NCBI RefSeq assembly: GCF_000428525.1
Contig: NZ_AUAC01000002.1
Coordinates: forward strand, 248,001-312,000
Direction: 5' to 3'
From: Hellea balneolensis DSM 19091
Lineage (GTDB): Bacteria > Pseudomonadota > Alphaproteobacteria > Caulobacterales > Maricaulaceae
DNA: 64,000 nt
Below the pieces are notes generated by a model that was given only the letters and a program-made list of their open reading frames with translations, did not search any database and had not been told where the DNA came from. The number at the start of each line of letters is the position of its first letter. Within the stretch, counting starts at the first letter, position 1. The position numbers were made by a program, and so were the translations under genes. Below are positions 50,350 through 56,398 of the stretch, piece after piece.

Positions 50350-51186
50350 CTACCAAGATAATTCAGACGCCATATATCGCGCGGCAATACCGTGCTCACC
50401 CAACAGCGCCTTAAACTTTGTCTCGGTTTCCCCGTAAAGACCGTCTTGAATAAAGAGGCAGTCATAATCCTGCTGCTGTGCGCCGAGTAAATCGGTGAAA
50501 ATATTATCCCCAATGCACAATATACGATCTTGCGGCGGAAGGTAACCGAGCATTTCTTGCATCCACGCGCGAGAGAGCCGATAAATCGGCTCATGCGGTT
50601 TCCCGGCATAAATCACCTCCCCGCCTAGCTCTTCATAGAGCTTGGCCAGAGCTCCGCCGCACCAAACAATCTTATTGCCCACCCGTACCTTCACATCTGG
50701 GTTAGCGCAAATAAAGGGCAGCCCCCCATCCCGCGCCTCGGTCAGCATAGCGCGATAATCCTCCGGCTCATCATCATCGTCAAACATACCCGTGCAGGAA
50801 ATAAAGCTCGCCTGATCGATATCGGAAAAATGCAGCTCTATCGTCTCATAAAGCACATCATCACGCTCTGGCCCGAGCTTAAAGGCGGGGCCCGGCGCGC
50901 GGCGTGAAAGCTCATCAATCGTCGCATCGCCCGACGTGACAATAGCGTCATAAAACTCACCCTGCACCCCGATCTGTTCAAAGCTATGTGGAATAGACAC
51001 GGACGGCTTGGGCGAATTGGAAATCAAAATAACGGGCCCGTTTTCTCCGCGAAACAGCTCGAGCGCCTCGGTTGCCGCTTTATTCGCCTCGCGCCCATTA
51101 TGCACAACACCCCATATATCACAGAGCACGACATCATAATCCTGCGCCACTTGCCCAAGACCCGAAAGAGAAGAGAAATTTGTCAT
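50350..51186 (-). CDS. HAD-superfamily hydrolase, TIGR01459 type
   Basis: A 278-residue class IIA HAD phosphatase. Motif I is VVLCDIWGVVHNGREANKAA, motif II ILISNSPKP, and the late acidic motif CIGDNIFTDLLGAQ. The family is widespread in alphaproteobacteria next to ribF; the substrate is unknown. It is the last chromosomal-style gene before the AT-rich cassette. Confidence 0.9.
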   Translation of the reverse strand: MTNFSSLSGLGQVAQDYDVVLCDIWGVVHNGREANKAATEALELFRGENGPVILISNSPKPSVSIPHSFEQIGVQGEFYDAIVTSGDATIDELSRRAPGPAFKLGPERDDVLYETIELHFSDIDQASFISCTGMFDDDDEPEDYRAMLTEARDGGLPFICANPDVKVRVGNKIVWCGGALAKLYEELGGEVIYAGKPHEPIYRLSRAWMQEMLGYLPPQDRILCIGDNIFTDLLGAQQQDYDCLFIQDGLYGETETKFKALLGEHGIAARYMASELSW

Positions 51187-51202: not shown

Positions 51203-51249
51203 CTAGAGACGTTTAATGCAATGGGGTAAACTCTAGTGACATTTAAGCA
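51203..51249. repeat. Short imperfect direct repeat at the border of the AT-rich cassette
   Basis: CTAGAGACGTTTAATGCA (51203-51220) is repeated as CTAGTGACATTTAAGCA (51233-51249): about 14 matches and one missing base. It lies between the HAD start and the methyltransferase stop, so it could be promoter/operator DNA of the HAD gene or a scar of the cassette's insertion. I did not find the same repeat on the far side. Confidence 0.35.
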
Positions 51250-51251
51250 TT

Positions 51252-52391
51252 TTAAGCTGCAGATGAGGTAGAGAATTCATTAAATTGCTGAAGGTTAGTC
51301 TGGTAGTTTTCTATGATATGTAACTTAATTGATGCAGCTAAACCTTTGGCAGCCAAGTATGGAACACCATTACCGATACATTTGAACATATTTGACAAGC
51401 CCATATCTGCCGGAAACTCATACTCTTTTGGTAATGATTGGATAGCCAAAGCTTCAGCGGCTGATAAACGCCGTGCTTTATATGGGTGTAGATGGACTTC
51501 ATTATTTCCATATGCTGCAGTTGGGGAATAGCGCCAACGATGGAGTCGTTTATATGACTTTTTCTTATCGTCGCCCTCGCAAATGGTTTTAAATCGCGGC
51601 AATCCAGCTCGGGGTTTAAAATGATGCTTACTATTTGGATGGTTTTTAACATCATTTCGGTCAAACCAATACTGCACAGTCAAGCCTAGAGGTAGATGGT
51701 CTGGCCTAGGAACGAGCTTTCGAGGGTAAAAAGGAGTAACGTCGGGCCAATCGTACTGGAACCCCGAACGATCAGGGTAAAGCCTTTCACCCCATCCGAA
51801 TTTTGTCTCCTCAAAGCAATCGCGCCTGAAGCCGACTAGAATAATTCGTTCACGGTCCTGAGGAACACCATATTCAAGAGCATTTACAACTCGTTCGCTC
51901 AGATAATAAAATTGGCAAAGTTTATCCTTAAGATGTTCAAAAAACTCTCTGTGCTTTTTAGTGCGGTAGAGCCCTTTGACATTTTCAAAAAGAAAAAAAT
52001 GAGGCTTACCATTAATTATTAAATCCACATAAGTTTCAGACAAACGGCCATTCTCACCACTTCTTCCGCGATTTTTCCCGCCAACTGAAAAATCGGGGCA
52101 AGGTGGCCCTCCAATAAAGCCTATGACTTTTTTCAAGTTTTCTTCCATTTTTACAGCTTCAGCTAGGCCTCTATCTCCGCGTAGTGAAGTTATATCTACG
52201 TTAGATAGGCCATACTTTGGTTCTCTAATTCCCAAAATATCTCTCGAATGAGAATAAGCCTCAAGAAAAGGAGTATGTATTTCGTTAGCAAATACTACAT
52301 CAAATTCTTCCGACTCAAAACCTAAGTCCAAGAAGCCCCCTCCTGAGAAGAAGGAAAACACACTAAAGCTCTCATTAAATTTTTTAGTCAT
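51252..52391 (-). CDS. DNA (cytosine-5-)-methyltransferase
   Basis: A 379-residue C5-cytosine methyltransferase. All key motifs are intact: FSFFSGGGFLDLGF (I), GGPPCPDFS with catalytic C98 (IV), FENVKG (VI, 136-138), YGVPQDRERIILVG (VIII), the target-recognition region about 200-300, RRLSAAEALAIQSLP (IX) and CIGNGVP (X). It would methylate a short DNA site; the site cannot be told. It is the third gene of an operon with a DUF262 protein and a nucleotidyltransferase-like protein, only two bases after the DUF262 stop. No cognate restriction gene is next to it. Confidence 0.94.
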   Translation of the reverse strand: MTKKFNESFSVFSFFSGGGFLDLGFESEEFDVVFANEIHTPFLEAYSHSRDILGIREPKYGLSNVDITSLRGDRGLAEAVKMEENLKKVIGFIGGPPCPDFSVGGKNRGRSGENGRLSETYVDLIINGKPHFFLFENVKGLYRTKKHREFFEHLKDKLCQFYYLSERVVNALEYGVPQDRERIILVGFRRDCFEETKFGWGERLYPDRSGFQYDWPDVTPFYPRKLVPRPDHLPLGLTVQYWFDRNDVKNHPNSKHHFKPRAGLPRFKTICEGDDKKKSYKRLHRWRYSPTAAYGNNEVHLHPYKARRLSAAEALAIQSLPKEYEFPADMGLSNMFKCIGNGVPYLAAKGLAASIKLHIIENYQTNLQQFNEFSTSSAA

Positions 52392-52393
52392 GC

Positions 52394-53440
52394 CTAATTT
52401 TGCTCAACATATTGTAAAAGGGAATATACTCTGCGCTCTCGCCCTGGTTTTCCCGTAGTGCTGTAGCTAGAACCCTTTTTATATTCTAGAAACAGGCTAT
52501 CTGTGCTTGGGTCATCAAAATCTAGCGTGGTATAAATCTGGATGAAATTTTCGAGTTTCTTAGTAGTAAGTTCTATACTTGCATGCCTTGCCAAATCGAC
52601 TACAGCAAAAATAGTATAGAAATGAACAGGCTTGCTAAAAAACTTCTCAATCGATCTTTGTAAAAACAGCTTCTCTATCTCAGAAAAATTTTTTTCAACT
52701 TTTGCAAAATGTAATTTCCGCTCAGGATACTTGTCGTTGTAGCGGTCATACAATTCATTCAGAGCGGAAGGAGGTGTGCTAACGATACCTTGTATTAAGA
52801 AGGTGAGTAACTGACTACTAAAGTCGACATCTTTCATTCGCCGCATGTCATTATCAGAAAATATATTCCAATCATAGCTATTCAGCTTATTTGCAACATC
52901 GACTGAGGCCTTGATGAACTCGCCATGAAATTCGGCGTTACGCATTTCTTGCGGATTCAGAGATTTATCAGTTTGATTTAATCTAGTAAAAATCTTGTGA
53001 ATCAACTCTGCAGTTAGAGATGAAGGAATCTCACGTACATCAATATTATACTCCCATATTTTCTGTTTAAGGTTAGCGGGCAGGCTATCCCAGTTTTTAG
53101 AAGCATATGCGCTATCTTTGTTACTTTTATGCAGAGCGGACTTTTTGAGCCCCCACTCTCCGCTCACGAATTGTAAAATTGTCGAAAGACGTTGCTGCCC
53201 ATCAACTACACTGAACCTTTGCTTTCCGGAATTAGGATCAGACTTCTGAGCCCAAAGATATATCTCAGGCATAGGGTATCCCATTAGAATTGTCTCAATA
53301 AGTTTAATCTTCTGGCTCTCTGTCCATATCATTTTCCTCTGAAAAGAACGATCCACAAAATATACGTCGTCTCTCAACTTTGCGACGACAGAGGTAATGT
53401 TTTCGCGTTTTGGCTGGATAATTTCATTTAAAGTTGTCAT
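52394..53440 (-). CDS. DUF262 protein (GmrS/ParB-like nuclease-fold)
   Basis: A 348-residue protein. The DUF262 N-terminal block has FVDRSFQRKMIWT (Gln34-Arg35, Trp39) and the hallmark VVDGQQRLSTI (D80-G-Q-Q-R84) that binds or hydrolyses NTP in GmrS/SspE-type proteins. The C-terminal half (about 150-348) is helical and Lys/Glu-rich and shows no DUF1524 HNH motif, so the usual nuclease half of GmrSD-like enzymes is missing. The start overlaps the previous stop as ATGA. It is AT-rich. It may sense or regulate phage DNA modification together with its partners. Confidence 0.88.
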   Translation of the reverse strand: MTTLNEIIQPKRENITSVVAKLRDDVYFVDRSFQRKMIWTESQKIKLIETILMGYPMPEIYLWAQKSDPNSGKQRFSVVDGQQRLSTILQFVSGEWGLKKSALHKSNKDSAYASKNWDSLPANLKQKIWEYNIDVREIPSSLTAELIHKIFTRLNQTDKSLNPQEMRNAEFHGEFIKASVDVANKLNSYDWNIFSDNDMRRMKDVDFSSQLLTFLIQGIVSTPPSALNELYDRYNDKYPERKLHFAKVEKNFSEIEKLFLQRSIEKFFSKPVHFYTIFAVVDLARHASIELTTKKLENFIQIYTTLDFDDPSTDSLFLEYKKGSSYSTTGKPGRERRVYSLLQYVEQN

Positions 53441-54054
53441 GCAATCGCTTTCTTAAATTCTGAAATACTCCAATTTTGATAAGCTAACACATCATCTTTG
53501 TTTCTATACACCCTAAACTTGATTTCATTTTTTAGCCTCAAACTGGTGTTCGCTTCTCTTTTTACGTCATCATACAGCCTTAAGATACGGTCAAACTTTG
53601 TAGTCACGCGTGAGGCTCCTAAATTGGAAATATGCATTTTACTGTCAAAACTAACGAATTTCTTAAAAGTGGATTTTGCGTAACGTTTGTAGACGTAATG
53701 ATGTCCAGCATAAAATGCTGCAATTAAATCAATCCAAATAGTCTCGAAATGCTTCGGAGATATAATAACTACGTCTAAATCAGATTTCGGATTCCCTGAT
53801 GTATTTCTAAGACGATAAGGCCTAAATGGACTTGATGGCGAAAGACTTCGGCCAAAATATCCACTTCCGATCAGCATAACACTTTCTTCCGATATGCCGA
53901 AAACTTGCCCGATTTTTTCGCGAAAAAAGGTATAATCACAAGGAGCGTCAGGACGTGTAAAATACCAAGGGTTATCAGAAAATAAATGCCCCATATTGAA
54001 CTCCTCTTCCGAGCATTCAAGTATCAAGTCTCGTAAGTCTCCTTTTGGCATCAT
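53437..54054 (-). CDS. Nucleotidyltransferase-like protein of a probable defence cassette
   Basis: A 205-residue protein with a polymerase-beta-type pattern: IGSGYFGRS (GS at 63-64) followed after about 28 residues by KSDLDVVII (D92, D94), the metal-binding GS...DxD arrangement, and a helical C-terminus. No HEPN or second domain is visible. The fold assignment is by motif only. I start it at the ATG at 54054 since GGGGAGG lies nine bases upstream; a GTG at 54072 is the alternative. First gene of the cassette. Composition is about 37% GC in a counted line, well below the flanks. Confidence 0.72.
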   Translation of the reverse strand: MMPKGDLRDLILECSEEEFNMGHLFSDNPWYFTRPDAPCDYTFFREKIGQVFGISEESVMLIGSGYFGRSLSPSSPFRPYRLRNTSGNPKSDLDVVIISPKHFETIWIDLIAAFYAGHHYVYKRYAKSTFKKFVSFDSKMHISNLGASRVTTKFDRILRLYDDVKREANTSLRLKNEIKFRVYRNKDDVLAYQNWSISEFKKAIA

Positions 54055-54072
54055 AGAATCAGGCCTCCCCAC

Positions 54073-54770
54073 TTAGTCTTAGTGTTTGTCCCCCAAGAAA
54101 GAAATATACTTTTTTTCATTTAACATAATTCAATTCAAAACAAAATATTTCGATAACCCACCTCAGCTTAAAACTATAGCAGACATTATTCTCATAATCT
54201 TCTCTCCTCTCCTCATGCACCCCCAATCATCACACCTACGCTCCAAAACCTCCACTAATACGGCACTTTGTAAAAAACTTATCCTTGGTCTCTGATTTGC
54301 CCTTATATTTAAATCGTTCCTCTCTTCGGGACAGGCAAGCGTACGTTGGCTGGCTTTGGAGAGGACGGTGTTTGTGAATGAGGTTCTTTGGGTAACGCCT
54401 GTAAACCTGTTCATCGGAGGTGAGCTGCGGAACTTTGCTTCGCTCGGCCCTTCGCTAAAAAACATCGCCGCGCGGTCTTTGATTGCGTAAAACACATATC
54501 TTTTGACGTCCTCGGTTTTTCCGTCGCCGTCAAAGCCGCGCGGACGTCCCACATTTTGTGTGCTTCGCAACAATTCTTGGCTTCGCATCTTGGCGTCGAA
54601 GTCCTCCAAGGATGATGCGTGGCGTCTTATCAGGTGCCTTGCCAGCCCTCTCCCCCACCCGACCACCCACAGGGTAAACTCATTGGGTGGTCGGGTGGGG
54701 GAGAGGGCCGGTGCCGAAACCATAAAACCGGCCAATAGGTCGGTTTGAAACTTATTAAAAAAGGTTACTT
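54073..54770. other. Non-coding or relic stretch beside the AT-rich cassette
   Basis: About 700 bases with no convincing gene. From 54073 to 54170 it is very AT-rich and should hold the cassette promoter (TATATT near 54105 on the minus strand). A 190-codon open frame runs on the minus strand from 54735 to 54163, but it reads through the palindrome at 54646-54707, has unusual composition and no family I recognise; it may be a repeat-derived false frame or a decayed gene. A ribosome site AAGG precedes the real gene at 54771. Confidence 0.5.
54646..54707. repeat. Palindromic element with 24-bp perfect arms
   Basis: The left arm 54646-54669 (begins CCCTCTCCCCCACCCGACC) is the exact reverse complement of 54684-54707, with a 14-base loop. 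It is very GC-rich in an otherwise AT-rich gap. It looks like one of the mobile palindromic repeats of alphaproteobacteria and may mark the edge of an insertion. Confidence 0.75.
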
Positions 54771-55073
54771 ATGCCCCGTGCTCAGAAACATCCCGCCCAT
54801 CTTCGCCACAGTCTTGAAAAGCTGCGTTTGGATGTAGCGCTTAAACGGGCGCGCCTCGTTCAGGCCCAGCGCATCGCCAACAAACCCATTCCCTATGAGG
54901 ACCGCTTGCCGCTGACAGATGAACGGATTGAAGCCGTTGAAGCTAAAACAACTGCGGTCGAAAAAGATCTCTCACTTGTCAAATCTCAAAGATATTTAAA
55001 CCACATAGAAAAATGCCTGAAAGAGGAAATGAAACGCCAGGGCATAAAATCAATAGAGGCCGCAAAGCCGTAA
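54771..55073 (+). CDS. Small basic helical protein of unknown function
   Basis: A 100-residue protein, rich in Lys, Arg, Leu and Glu, predicted as long helices or coiled coil (HLRHSLEKLRLDVALKRARLVQAQR, then VEAKTTAVEKDLSLVKSQ). No membrane segment. AAGG is found at a suitable distance before the ATG. No family recognised. It is followed by the CAP-domain gene after 100 bases. Confidence 0.62.
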   Translation: MPRAQKHPAHLRHSLEKLRLDVALKRARLVQAQRIANKPIPYEDRLPLTDERIEAVEAKTTAVEKDLSLVKSQRYLNHIEKCLKEEMKRQGIKSIEAAKP

Positions 55074-55173
55074 GCGGCTCATTTACTGACATTTACGGAT
55101 TTGTAACTCGCAGCTTAACCTTTTGATAACCAGAGTAGGCCCACGGTGATTTCCGTCTTGGGAGGGCCGAAAC

Positions 55174-55950
55174 ATGGACTTAGCAATGCGTATTGGACTC
55201 TCTTTCTTATCTTTTTCAGCCTTGGGCGCGCTCGCCCTCTCCGCCCCCGCTTTTGGCGCGCCAAATCTGATTGGGCAAACCGATGACGGCACTTACCGAA
55301 CAGAAACGGTCTATTCGACCAGTGAATGCTCTGCGATCTGCCAAGCTGAATCGCCGCTTTGCCGCGGGACGATCACGGTGCAGATGGACATCACCAAGCC
55401 CGAAATGATTTGCCGGCTGAATAATGGCAAGGGCGCACAGCCCGCCTTCCCGTCCACGCCACCAACACCGCTCAACCGCGATATTGCTTTAGCAGATTTC
55501 AATGCTTACCGCGCGGAAGTGGGGCTTGATCCTGTAAAATATAGCGGCAAACTCAATGAAGCGTCGCGCCTCCATGCCGAGGATATGGCCCGCGCGGGCG
55601 ATGCCTCACATAGCGGAACTGATGGTTCGTCACATGGGGATCGCGTGCAGCGTCAGGCTTATTATTTTACCATTGCGGCTGAGAATGTAGCTTCCGGACA
55701 AAAGTCGTGGGAGAAAGTTTTCAAGGCGTGGCAGGATAGCCCCGGCCATAATGAAAATTTATTGCGTGATGATGTGACGGATTTTGGTGTGGCCCTCGTC
55801 TATGATCCGGACAGTGCCTATCAAACCTATTGGGCGATGTTGGTCGCCGCGCCGCTGGATGCGGACACGACAGAGTATTTAAGATATCAGGGGCAAATCC
55901 CGCCCATGGCGACATCAGGCGCAGAATTGAAGTCCGATATTAACCCGTAA
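55174..55950 (+). CDS. Secreted CAP-domain (SCP/PR-1-like) protein with a Cys-rich N-terminal module
   Basis: A 258-residue exported protein. A signal peptide (about 1-28, ending in AFGA) is followed by a PAN/Apple-like module with four Cys (C52, C56, C63, C80), then a CAP domain (about 105-245). The CAP cavity residues are visible: LHAEDM (H134), DASHSGTDGSS (H146), AAENVASG (E170), DSPGHNENLL (H192). CAP proteins in bacteria are extracellular, some with protease or lipid-binding roles. It is convergent with the MaoC gene, overlapping 11 bases. Confidence 0.87.
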   Translation: MDLAMRIGLSFLSFSALGALALSAPAFGAPNLIGQTDDGTYRTETVYSTSECSAICQAESPLCRGTITVQMDITKPEMICRLNNGKGAQPAFPSTPPTPLNRDIALADFNAYRAEVGLDPVKYSGKLNEASRLHAEDMARAGDASHSGTDGSSHGDRVQRQAYYFTIAAENVASGQKSWEKVFKAWQDSPGHNENLLRDDVTDFGVALVYDPDSAYQTYWAMLVAAPLDADTTEYLRYQGQIPPMATSGAELKSDINP

Positions 55951-56398
55951 ACTGCATGCCGAGCCAATCGCAAATCAGGGCGGGCTTATCTTGGCCATCA
56001 ATCTCAACGGTGACCTCATAGGTCAGCAAATGCTGGCCAGGCTTCTTTTCCACGGCTTCCTTTAACGTGAACTGAGCGCGAACTTTGGACCCGCTCGGGA
56101 CAGGCGCGAGGAAACGAACATTATTGAACCCGTAATTGACCCCCATTTTTACACCTTCAATGACAAGACCTGCGCTCTCTGAGAATTTTGACAAGAGCGA
56201 GAGCGTTAAAAATCCGTGGGCAATCGTGCCGCCAAAGGGCGTCATCTTGGCCATGTCTTCATTAATATGGATGAATTGATGATCTTCGGTCACGTCGGCA
56301 AATTGATTAATGCGGTCTTGATCAACCGTGATCCAATCACTGACACCAATAACGGTGCCTACGAGGTCCGGCAATGCGGAAGCTGCTGCAGTTTTCAT
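55940..56398 (-). CDS. MaoC-like enoyl-CoA hydratase
   Basis: A 152-residue hot-dog protein. The hydratase motif is FADVTEDHQFIHINEDMAKMTPFGGTIAHGFLTLSLLS, with the catalytic Asp and His in place. It lies 35 bases after the second acyl-CoA dehydrogenase gene, so dehydrogenation and hydration of the same acyl-CoA are likely to follow each other in one operon. Confidence 0.9.
   Translation of the reverse strand: MKTAAASALPDLVGTVIGVSDWITVDQDRINQFADVTEDHQFIHINEDMAKMTPFGGTIAHGFLTLSLLSKFSESAGLVIEGVKMGVNYGFNNVRFLAPVPSGSKVRAQFTLKEAVEKKPGQHLLTYEVTVEIDGQDKPALICDWLGMQFTG

Follow-up and report, generated by a model that had tools for sequence, protein, structure and literature searches.

A cytosine-5 methyltransferase joined to a nucleotidyltransferase-like/DUF262 gene pair in Hellea balneolensis: a candidate restriction-modification-like variant of DUF262-based defence

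The window analysed here, a 64-kb stretch (64,000 nucleotides) of the genome of Hellea balneolensis DSM 19091, harbors three minus-strand open reading frames spanning 54072-51252 that encode, in this order, a nucleotidyltransferase-like protein (hereafter NT), a DUF262 protein and a C5 DNA methyltransferase (MTase). The core of this cassette is a conserved, co-diverging two-gene module, NT+DUF262, and the presence of the MTase beside it is not fortuitous. In our judgement the balance is about even for a restriction-modification (R-M)-like system in which the MTase would mark self, DUF262-NT would act on unmarked DNA and NT would be an exchangeable effector.

The cassette, its insertion slot and its three proteins

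The NT-like gene (53437-54072, minus strand; 211 aa, GTG start) is followed by the DUF262 (GmrSD_N) gene (52394-53440, minus strand; 348 aa) and by the DNA cytosine-5 methyltransferase gene (51252-52391, minus strand; 379 aa). The NT stop and the DUF262 start share a 4-nt overlap (53437-53440, minus strand) suggestive of translational coupling, and a 2-nt gap (52392-52393) separates DUF262 from the MTase, so that the coordinates agree with the three same-direction genes, 4-base overlap and 2-base gap of the initial annotation. The GC content of the NT, DUF262 and MTase genes is 38.2, 38.7 and 41.0%, respectively, whereas that of the whole window is 48.1% and that of two flanking genes 52.6-55.2%; GC3 is 33-39% in the cassette genes versus 56-57% in the flanking ones, and the 1-kb bins covering 52001-54000 are the most AT-rich among the window's 64, all of which bears out the description of a compact, AT-rich cassette.

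These genes lie within a variable insertion slot (51227-55939) between a HAD phosphatase gene (50350-51186) and a MaoC-like gene (55940-56398). In three genomes of the same genus (G001, G002 and G006) the HAD gene adjoins the MaoC-like gene with nothing between; in G005, G008 and G009 the same slot is occupied by other genes, and homology with G005 stops at 51226, 26 nt past the MTase stop codon. The cassette is regarded as horizontally acquired. Upstream of it, at 54642-54711, is a near-perfect inverted repeat with 28-nt arms and a 14-nt loop. No Rfam match was obtained, the 64-kb window contains no tRNA and no excess of promoters or terminators was found.

Gene 2 belongs to the GmrSD_N/DUF262 family (Pfam E 4.5e-25) and contains both Q34-R35 and the (I/V)DGQQR motif (V79-DGQQR84). 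Its closest PADLOC match is NsnA of Menshen (E 8.3e-41, residues 9-305), followed by PD-T4-2_A (E 2.4e-17), and a Foldseek search with its AlphaFold model (pLDDT 76) ranks BrxU first (7p9k, prob 0.99), followed by ParB, KorB and SspE. The protein is accordingly identified, at the level of sequence and predicted fold, as a GmrS/BrxU-type NTPase switch with a ParB/Srx fold, in keeping with its original assignment as GmrS-type. Its C-terminal half is all-helical by secondary structure, and no nuclease domain is seen in it by Pfam, secondary structure or Foldseek; Pfam detects no DUF1524/HNH in the cassette, and no GmrSD_C was found in the organism's own genome by a search whose controls were positive. 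The absence of DUF1524/HNH or another conventional nuclease from the cassette, remarked upon at the outset, therefore holds.

Gene 3 encodes a full-length C5 DNA MTase (Pfam DNA_methylase, E 5e-46; PADLOC MTase_II, E 1e-154) of an M.Cfr10I-like clade, whose catalytic motifs are intact (motif IV PPCPDFS, with Cys98, and ENV). The motif VIII-IX segment, which corresponds to the target-recognition region, is conserved as strongly as the catalytic part and shares 50-64% identity with MTases located beside Cfr10I/Bse634I-family restriction endonucleases (REases) and relatives; such REase-linked MTases sit on plasmids, and those of L006 and L032 are likewise similar. Because this region is shared with Cfr10I-linked MTases, the target of gene 3 is probably RCCGGY. 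In the window this site is found 27 times versus 36 expected, a difference too weak to use. CCGG is under-represented across positions 1-64000 of the window (145 observed versus ~240 expected from a maximal-order Markov estimate). No REase gene adjoins the MTase in the cassette, and a search of the organism's own genome for the Cfr10I/Bse634I family gave no match, its controls being silent too.

As for gene 1, the 14 homologues all, or almost all, retain G69-S70, G74, S76 and S97-D98-x-D100, of which G69-S70 and D98-x-D100 are invariant; a third acid at the typical position is not conserved among them, and the spacing of the motif (GSX18-35DxD) is longer than that of MntA (GSX10DXD). Matches to Pfam NTP_transf_2 are sub-threshold for the window protein (E 0.077) as well as for 4 of 12 family members (best E 0.013), and hhalign comparison with GlnD/MNT families yields low-probability scores of 23-29, versus 10-17 for unrelated controls, in alignments that match the SDxD motif and, in some runs, also the GS motif. 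NT matches phrog_32008 (E 3.6e-6), a family whose function is not known, and has no match among PADLOC and HEPN families; phage records yielded no match to it either. A Foldseek search of the AF2 model (pLDDT 70) against the PDB and viral structures returned nothing significant, for which reason a nucleotidyltransferase fold is weakly suggested by the sequence rather than claimed. The label nucleotidyltransferase-like thus survives as to the invariant GS...SDxD motif and a weak profile similarity, and fails to gain a significant profile or fold match. NT is probably an effector or modifier subunit. Two further candidate identities were rejected: membership of a secreted E3 ligase family, to which the match scores 22.9 bits (cut-off 1113) and is regarded as chance, and a CBASS-type signal synthase, as there is neither a cyclase-family match nor a recognisable effector gene.

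The NT+DUF262 module and its methyltransferase partners

NT and DUF262 genes are adjacent in 15 loci (the window, L003, L007, L033-L035, L037-L039, L155-L158, L177 and L213), most of which are prophage, plasmid or genome insertions. Searches with an NT profile, although blind to DUF262, still recover NT directly upstream of DUF262, with matches from Litorimonas cladophorae, a member of the same family (L007/L031), a Pseudoalteromonas plasmid, four genomes (G060, G239, G740 and G794) and several prophage contigs; an E. coli prophage also carries the pair. A scan of genome contigs with a three-sequence NT alignment, which makes for poor peptide patterns, retrieved one locus only. The distance matrices of the two proteins correlate with r 0.93, or 0.76 without near copies (0/2000 permutations), so that the pair is both conserved and co-diverging. 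The gpA-portal interval of P2-like phages is a known defence hotspot (PMC9122126), and L037 and L038, as read from their sequence, lie in it, between P2-like gpA and portal genes. Eleven of the 15 loci have no MTase in the stretch examined; the module in general therefore does not need methylation and the trio is one configuration of a unit that mostly occurs without an MTase. An exception to the pairing is found on an Aliarcobacter plasmid (L070, 5830-8489), where the NT homologue is followed by a 647-aa DUF4365 protein replacing DUF262. The 502-aa DUF262 of L213 (6607-8115) has a ~150-aa C-terminal extension without a Pfam match, possibly a DNA-recognition domain.

That the trio should not be confined to one genome had been set beforehand, and it is indeed carried by two further loci. 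In L177 a C-protein-like HTH gene (68 aa) is followed by an MTase of the window's clade, NT and DUF262, the genes overlapping by 10 and 8 nt; in L213 the order is a C-protein-like HTH gene, a different C5 MTase, NT and DUF262. L033 may be compared with them: it encodes a C5 MTase, an NgoMIV REase, NT and a DUF262 that is sister to that of the window (support 100/98), and because it has an REase of its own, NT-DUF262 is there an addition. On the DUF262 tree the label for an MTase within the operon changes at least three times; C5 MTases have thus joined NT-DUF262 by at least three acquisitions.

Partner exchange is also seen within the MTase clade of the window. Of 28 viral loci, 10 pair the MTase with one type II REase family and 2 with the Cfr10I family, 7 with NsnA-NsnB-NsnC (Menshen), 2 (near-copies) with DUF262+HEPN and 1 with NT+DUF262; 4 have an NsnA-like protein or domain only, and nothing was recognised in the remaining 2. 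The MTase+NsnABC combination is also present in G417 and in G392. Two Vibrio phages carry it too, and the depositors of one of them annotated it as Menshen. A tree built from 36 MTases requires 13 changes of partner, and the window MTase belongs to a set of seven (support 99/98) whose other six members are partnered with REases. Within L179/L180 (DUF262+HEPN+C5 MTase), HEPN holds the slot of NT, and an HEPN RNase is found in the corresponding slot of the sister operons L008, L013 and L179. Since REases and DUF262 modules replace one another beside this clade, the DUF262 module occupies the position of the endonuclease, and the close phage parallels suggest that such a swap happened several times.

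MTase-linked NsnA proteins, most of ~640-680 aa, have an extra N-terminal domain that is absent from the 385-position PADLOC profile and is profile-homologous to the N-terminus of the type II REase family that accompanies these same MTases (hhalign probability 95.7%, E 9e-9; controls <1%). This common element looks like a candidate site-recognition domain and supports an R-M reading for the Menshen cases; no recognised site-reading domain is found in the proteins of the window and L177.

Several other arrangements were encountered in the same survey. A C5 MTase lies directly upstream of NsnABC in L153, L154, L169, L171-L174, L178, L181, L194 and L195, and in L182, L184 and L185 the clade MTase is followed by a large protein read from its sequence as GHKL-ATPase-like and by a stand-alone NsnA N-terminal domain. 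An EcoRI-type adenine MTase is followed directly by DUF262 in L018, L019 and L092, the DUF262 of L019 carrying a C-terminal HNH domain. Short DUF262 proteins are also recurrently partnered with putative FRG-like proteins (L082, L084, L087 and L091), with a PLD-like protein together with a kinase-like protein (L073) and with an annotated protein kinase (L217).

A possible mechanism and its alternatives

Starting from the observed layout, recurrence, co-divergence and partner exchange, we propose that NT and DUF262 form a mobile anti-phage module of two genes, a role suggested by its context and relatives, and that the copy in the window recruited a Cfr10I-type C5 MTase to yield a restriction-modification-like unit. 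On the host chromosome, the MTase would methylate its own site, which is probably RCCGGY; DUF262, as an NTP-driven sensor or switch, would sense incoming unmethylated DNA; and NT would then modify a nucleic acid or protein target so that infection is blocked. The effector role is given to NT because an HEPN RNase holds the same position in sister operons. The initial annotation had cast the MTase as the source of self-immunity and DUF262 or NT as the effector; trio recurrence and partner swapping speak for this scheme, in which self-marking and the effector role of NT are what we infer.

A main rival reading is that NT-DUF262 is an autonomous, abortive-infection-like pair to which the MTase is functionally unlinked, be it as a passenger (our initial reading), as an orphan deprived of its REase or as a phage-style methylase for self-protection or regulation. 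This would suit the large number of MTase-less NT-DUF262 loci, the nesting of the window MTase among MTases with true REases, the lack of a recognised site reader in the window and L177 proteins, and the fact that defence slots often house more than one system (PMC9122126). It was demoted because of L177, L213 and the MTases linked to Menshen and HEPN: at least three acquisitions, tight REase-less operons (window, L177 and L213) and the repeated joining of the same clade to Menshen and DUF262+HEPN make it possible but rather unlikely. NT might alternatively be an antitoxin-like modifier that adenylylates DUF262, in the way that HepT is adenylylated by MntA, and keeps it inactive until infection, DUF262 then being the toxic or nicking effector. 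MNT proteins are established to adenylylate a neighbour-encoded toxin (PMC7641770), GS...DxD is conserved in all members of the NT family and NT and DUF262 co-diverge tightly, yet DUF262 has no nuclease domain, sister operons place an effector, the HEPN RNase, in the position of NT, and the GSX10DXD spacing is not observed; we thus hold this to be improbable.

The least likely possibility is a type IV-like role, in which DUF262 would recognise modified cytosine on phage DNA in the manner of GmrSD or BrxU. The GmrS-family fold would allow it, and BrxU targets 5mC, 5hmC and glucosylated DNA (PMC10952713); but the 5mC-forming enzyme of the operon would make host DNA a target, and DUF1524 nuclease is absent from both cassette and genome. 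The earlier view of DUF262 as one half of a modification-dependent restriction system is unlikely on the first of these grounds.

Beyond the window, the R-M-like reading tentatively extends to a more general idea, on which we place less than even confidence: DUF262 modules (NT-DUF262, DUF262-HEPN and Menshen) may be the sequence-specific, methylation-blocked restriction half of systems in which they are interchangeable with type II endonucleases, with nucleotidyl transfer here replacing DNA cutting. Nuclease-less DUF262 proteins occur in several anti-phage systems and, because one MTase clade pairs with either type II endonucleases or DUF262 modules, a direct, testable prediction can be made for their trigger, namely a missing methyl mark at a defined site. 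If true, the self/non-self logic of R-M would extend to effectors for which cutting DNA is not required.

Comparison with known systems

DUF262 proteins without DUF1524 act in anti-phage defence in PD-T4-2, Menshen and Dazbog (PMC10952713). PD-T4-2, of which L008 is a typical pair, is likewise a two-gene operon made up of a short nuclease-less DUF262 and a small partner; however, that partner (PD-T4-2_B) is HEPN-like, whereas NT has no HEPN match and is joined by an MTase. Menshen contains the nearest DUF262, NsnA, and in prophages has the same MTase clade upstream of NsnABC, but the window lacks NsnB (an OLD-like ATPase), NsnC and the N-terminal DUF262 extension, and has NT instead. With GmrSD and type IV systems the window DUF262 shares DGQQR and a ParB-like fold, without a fused or adjacent DUF1524/HNH. 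The type II R-M systems Cfr10I and Bse634I (RCCGGY) are close in their MTase, including its target-recognition region, and differ in that the window has DUF262+NT in place of the REase gene. MAE_28990 HEPN genes are operonic with a ParB nuclease and a DNA methylase (PMC3710099); these operons and L179/L180 also combine a methylase, a ParB/DUF262 protein and a small effector, with HEPN where the window has the NT-like protein. Finally, HepT/MntA (HEPN/MNT) resembles the core module in having a GS...DxD protein in a two-gene unit, but here the partner is DUF262, the motif spacing is longer and many loci are phage-borne.

In the papers searched, neither NT-DUF262 nor MTase-NT-DUF262 was encountered as a described system, although an MTase link may already have been mentioned for Menshen. 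Because a tested defining feature of each system is missing, the trio is not classed as Menshen, PD-T4-2 or GmrSD; by its sequence it appears instead to be a variant of DUF262-based defence, apparently not yet described.
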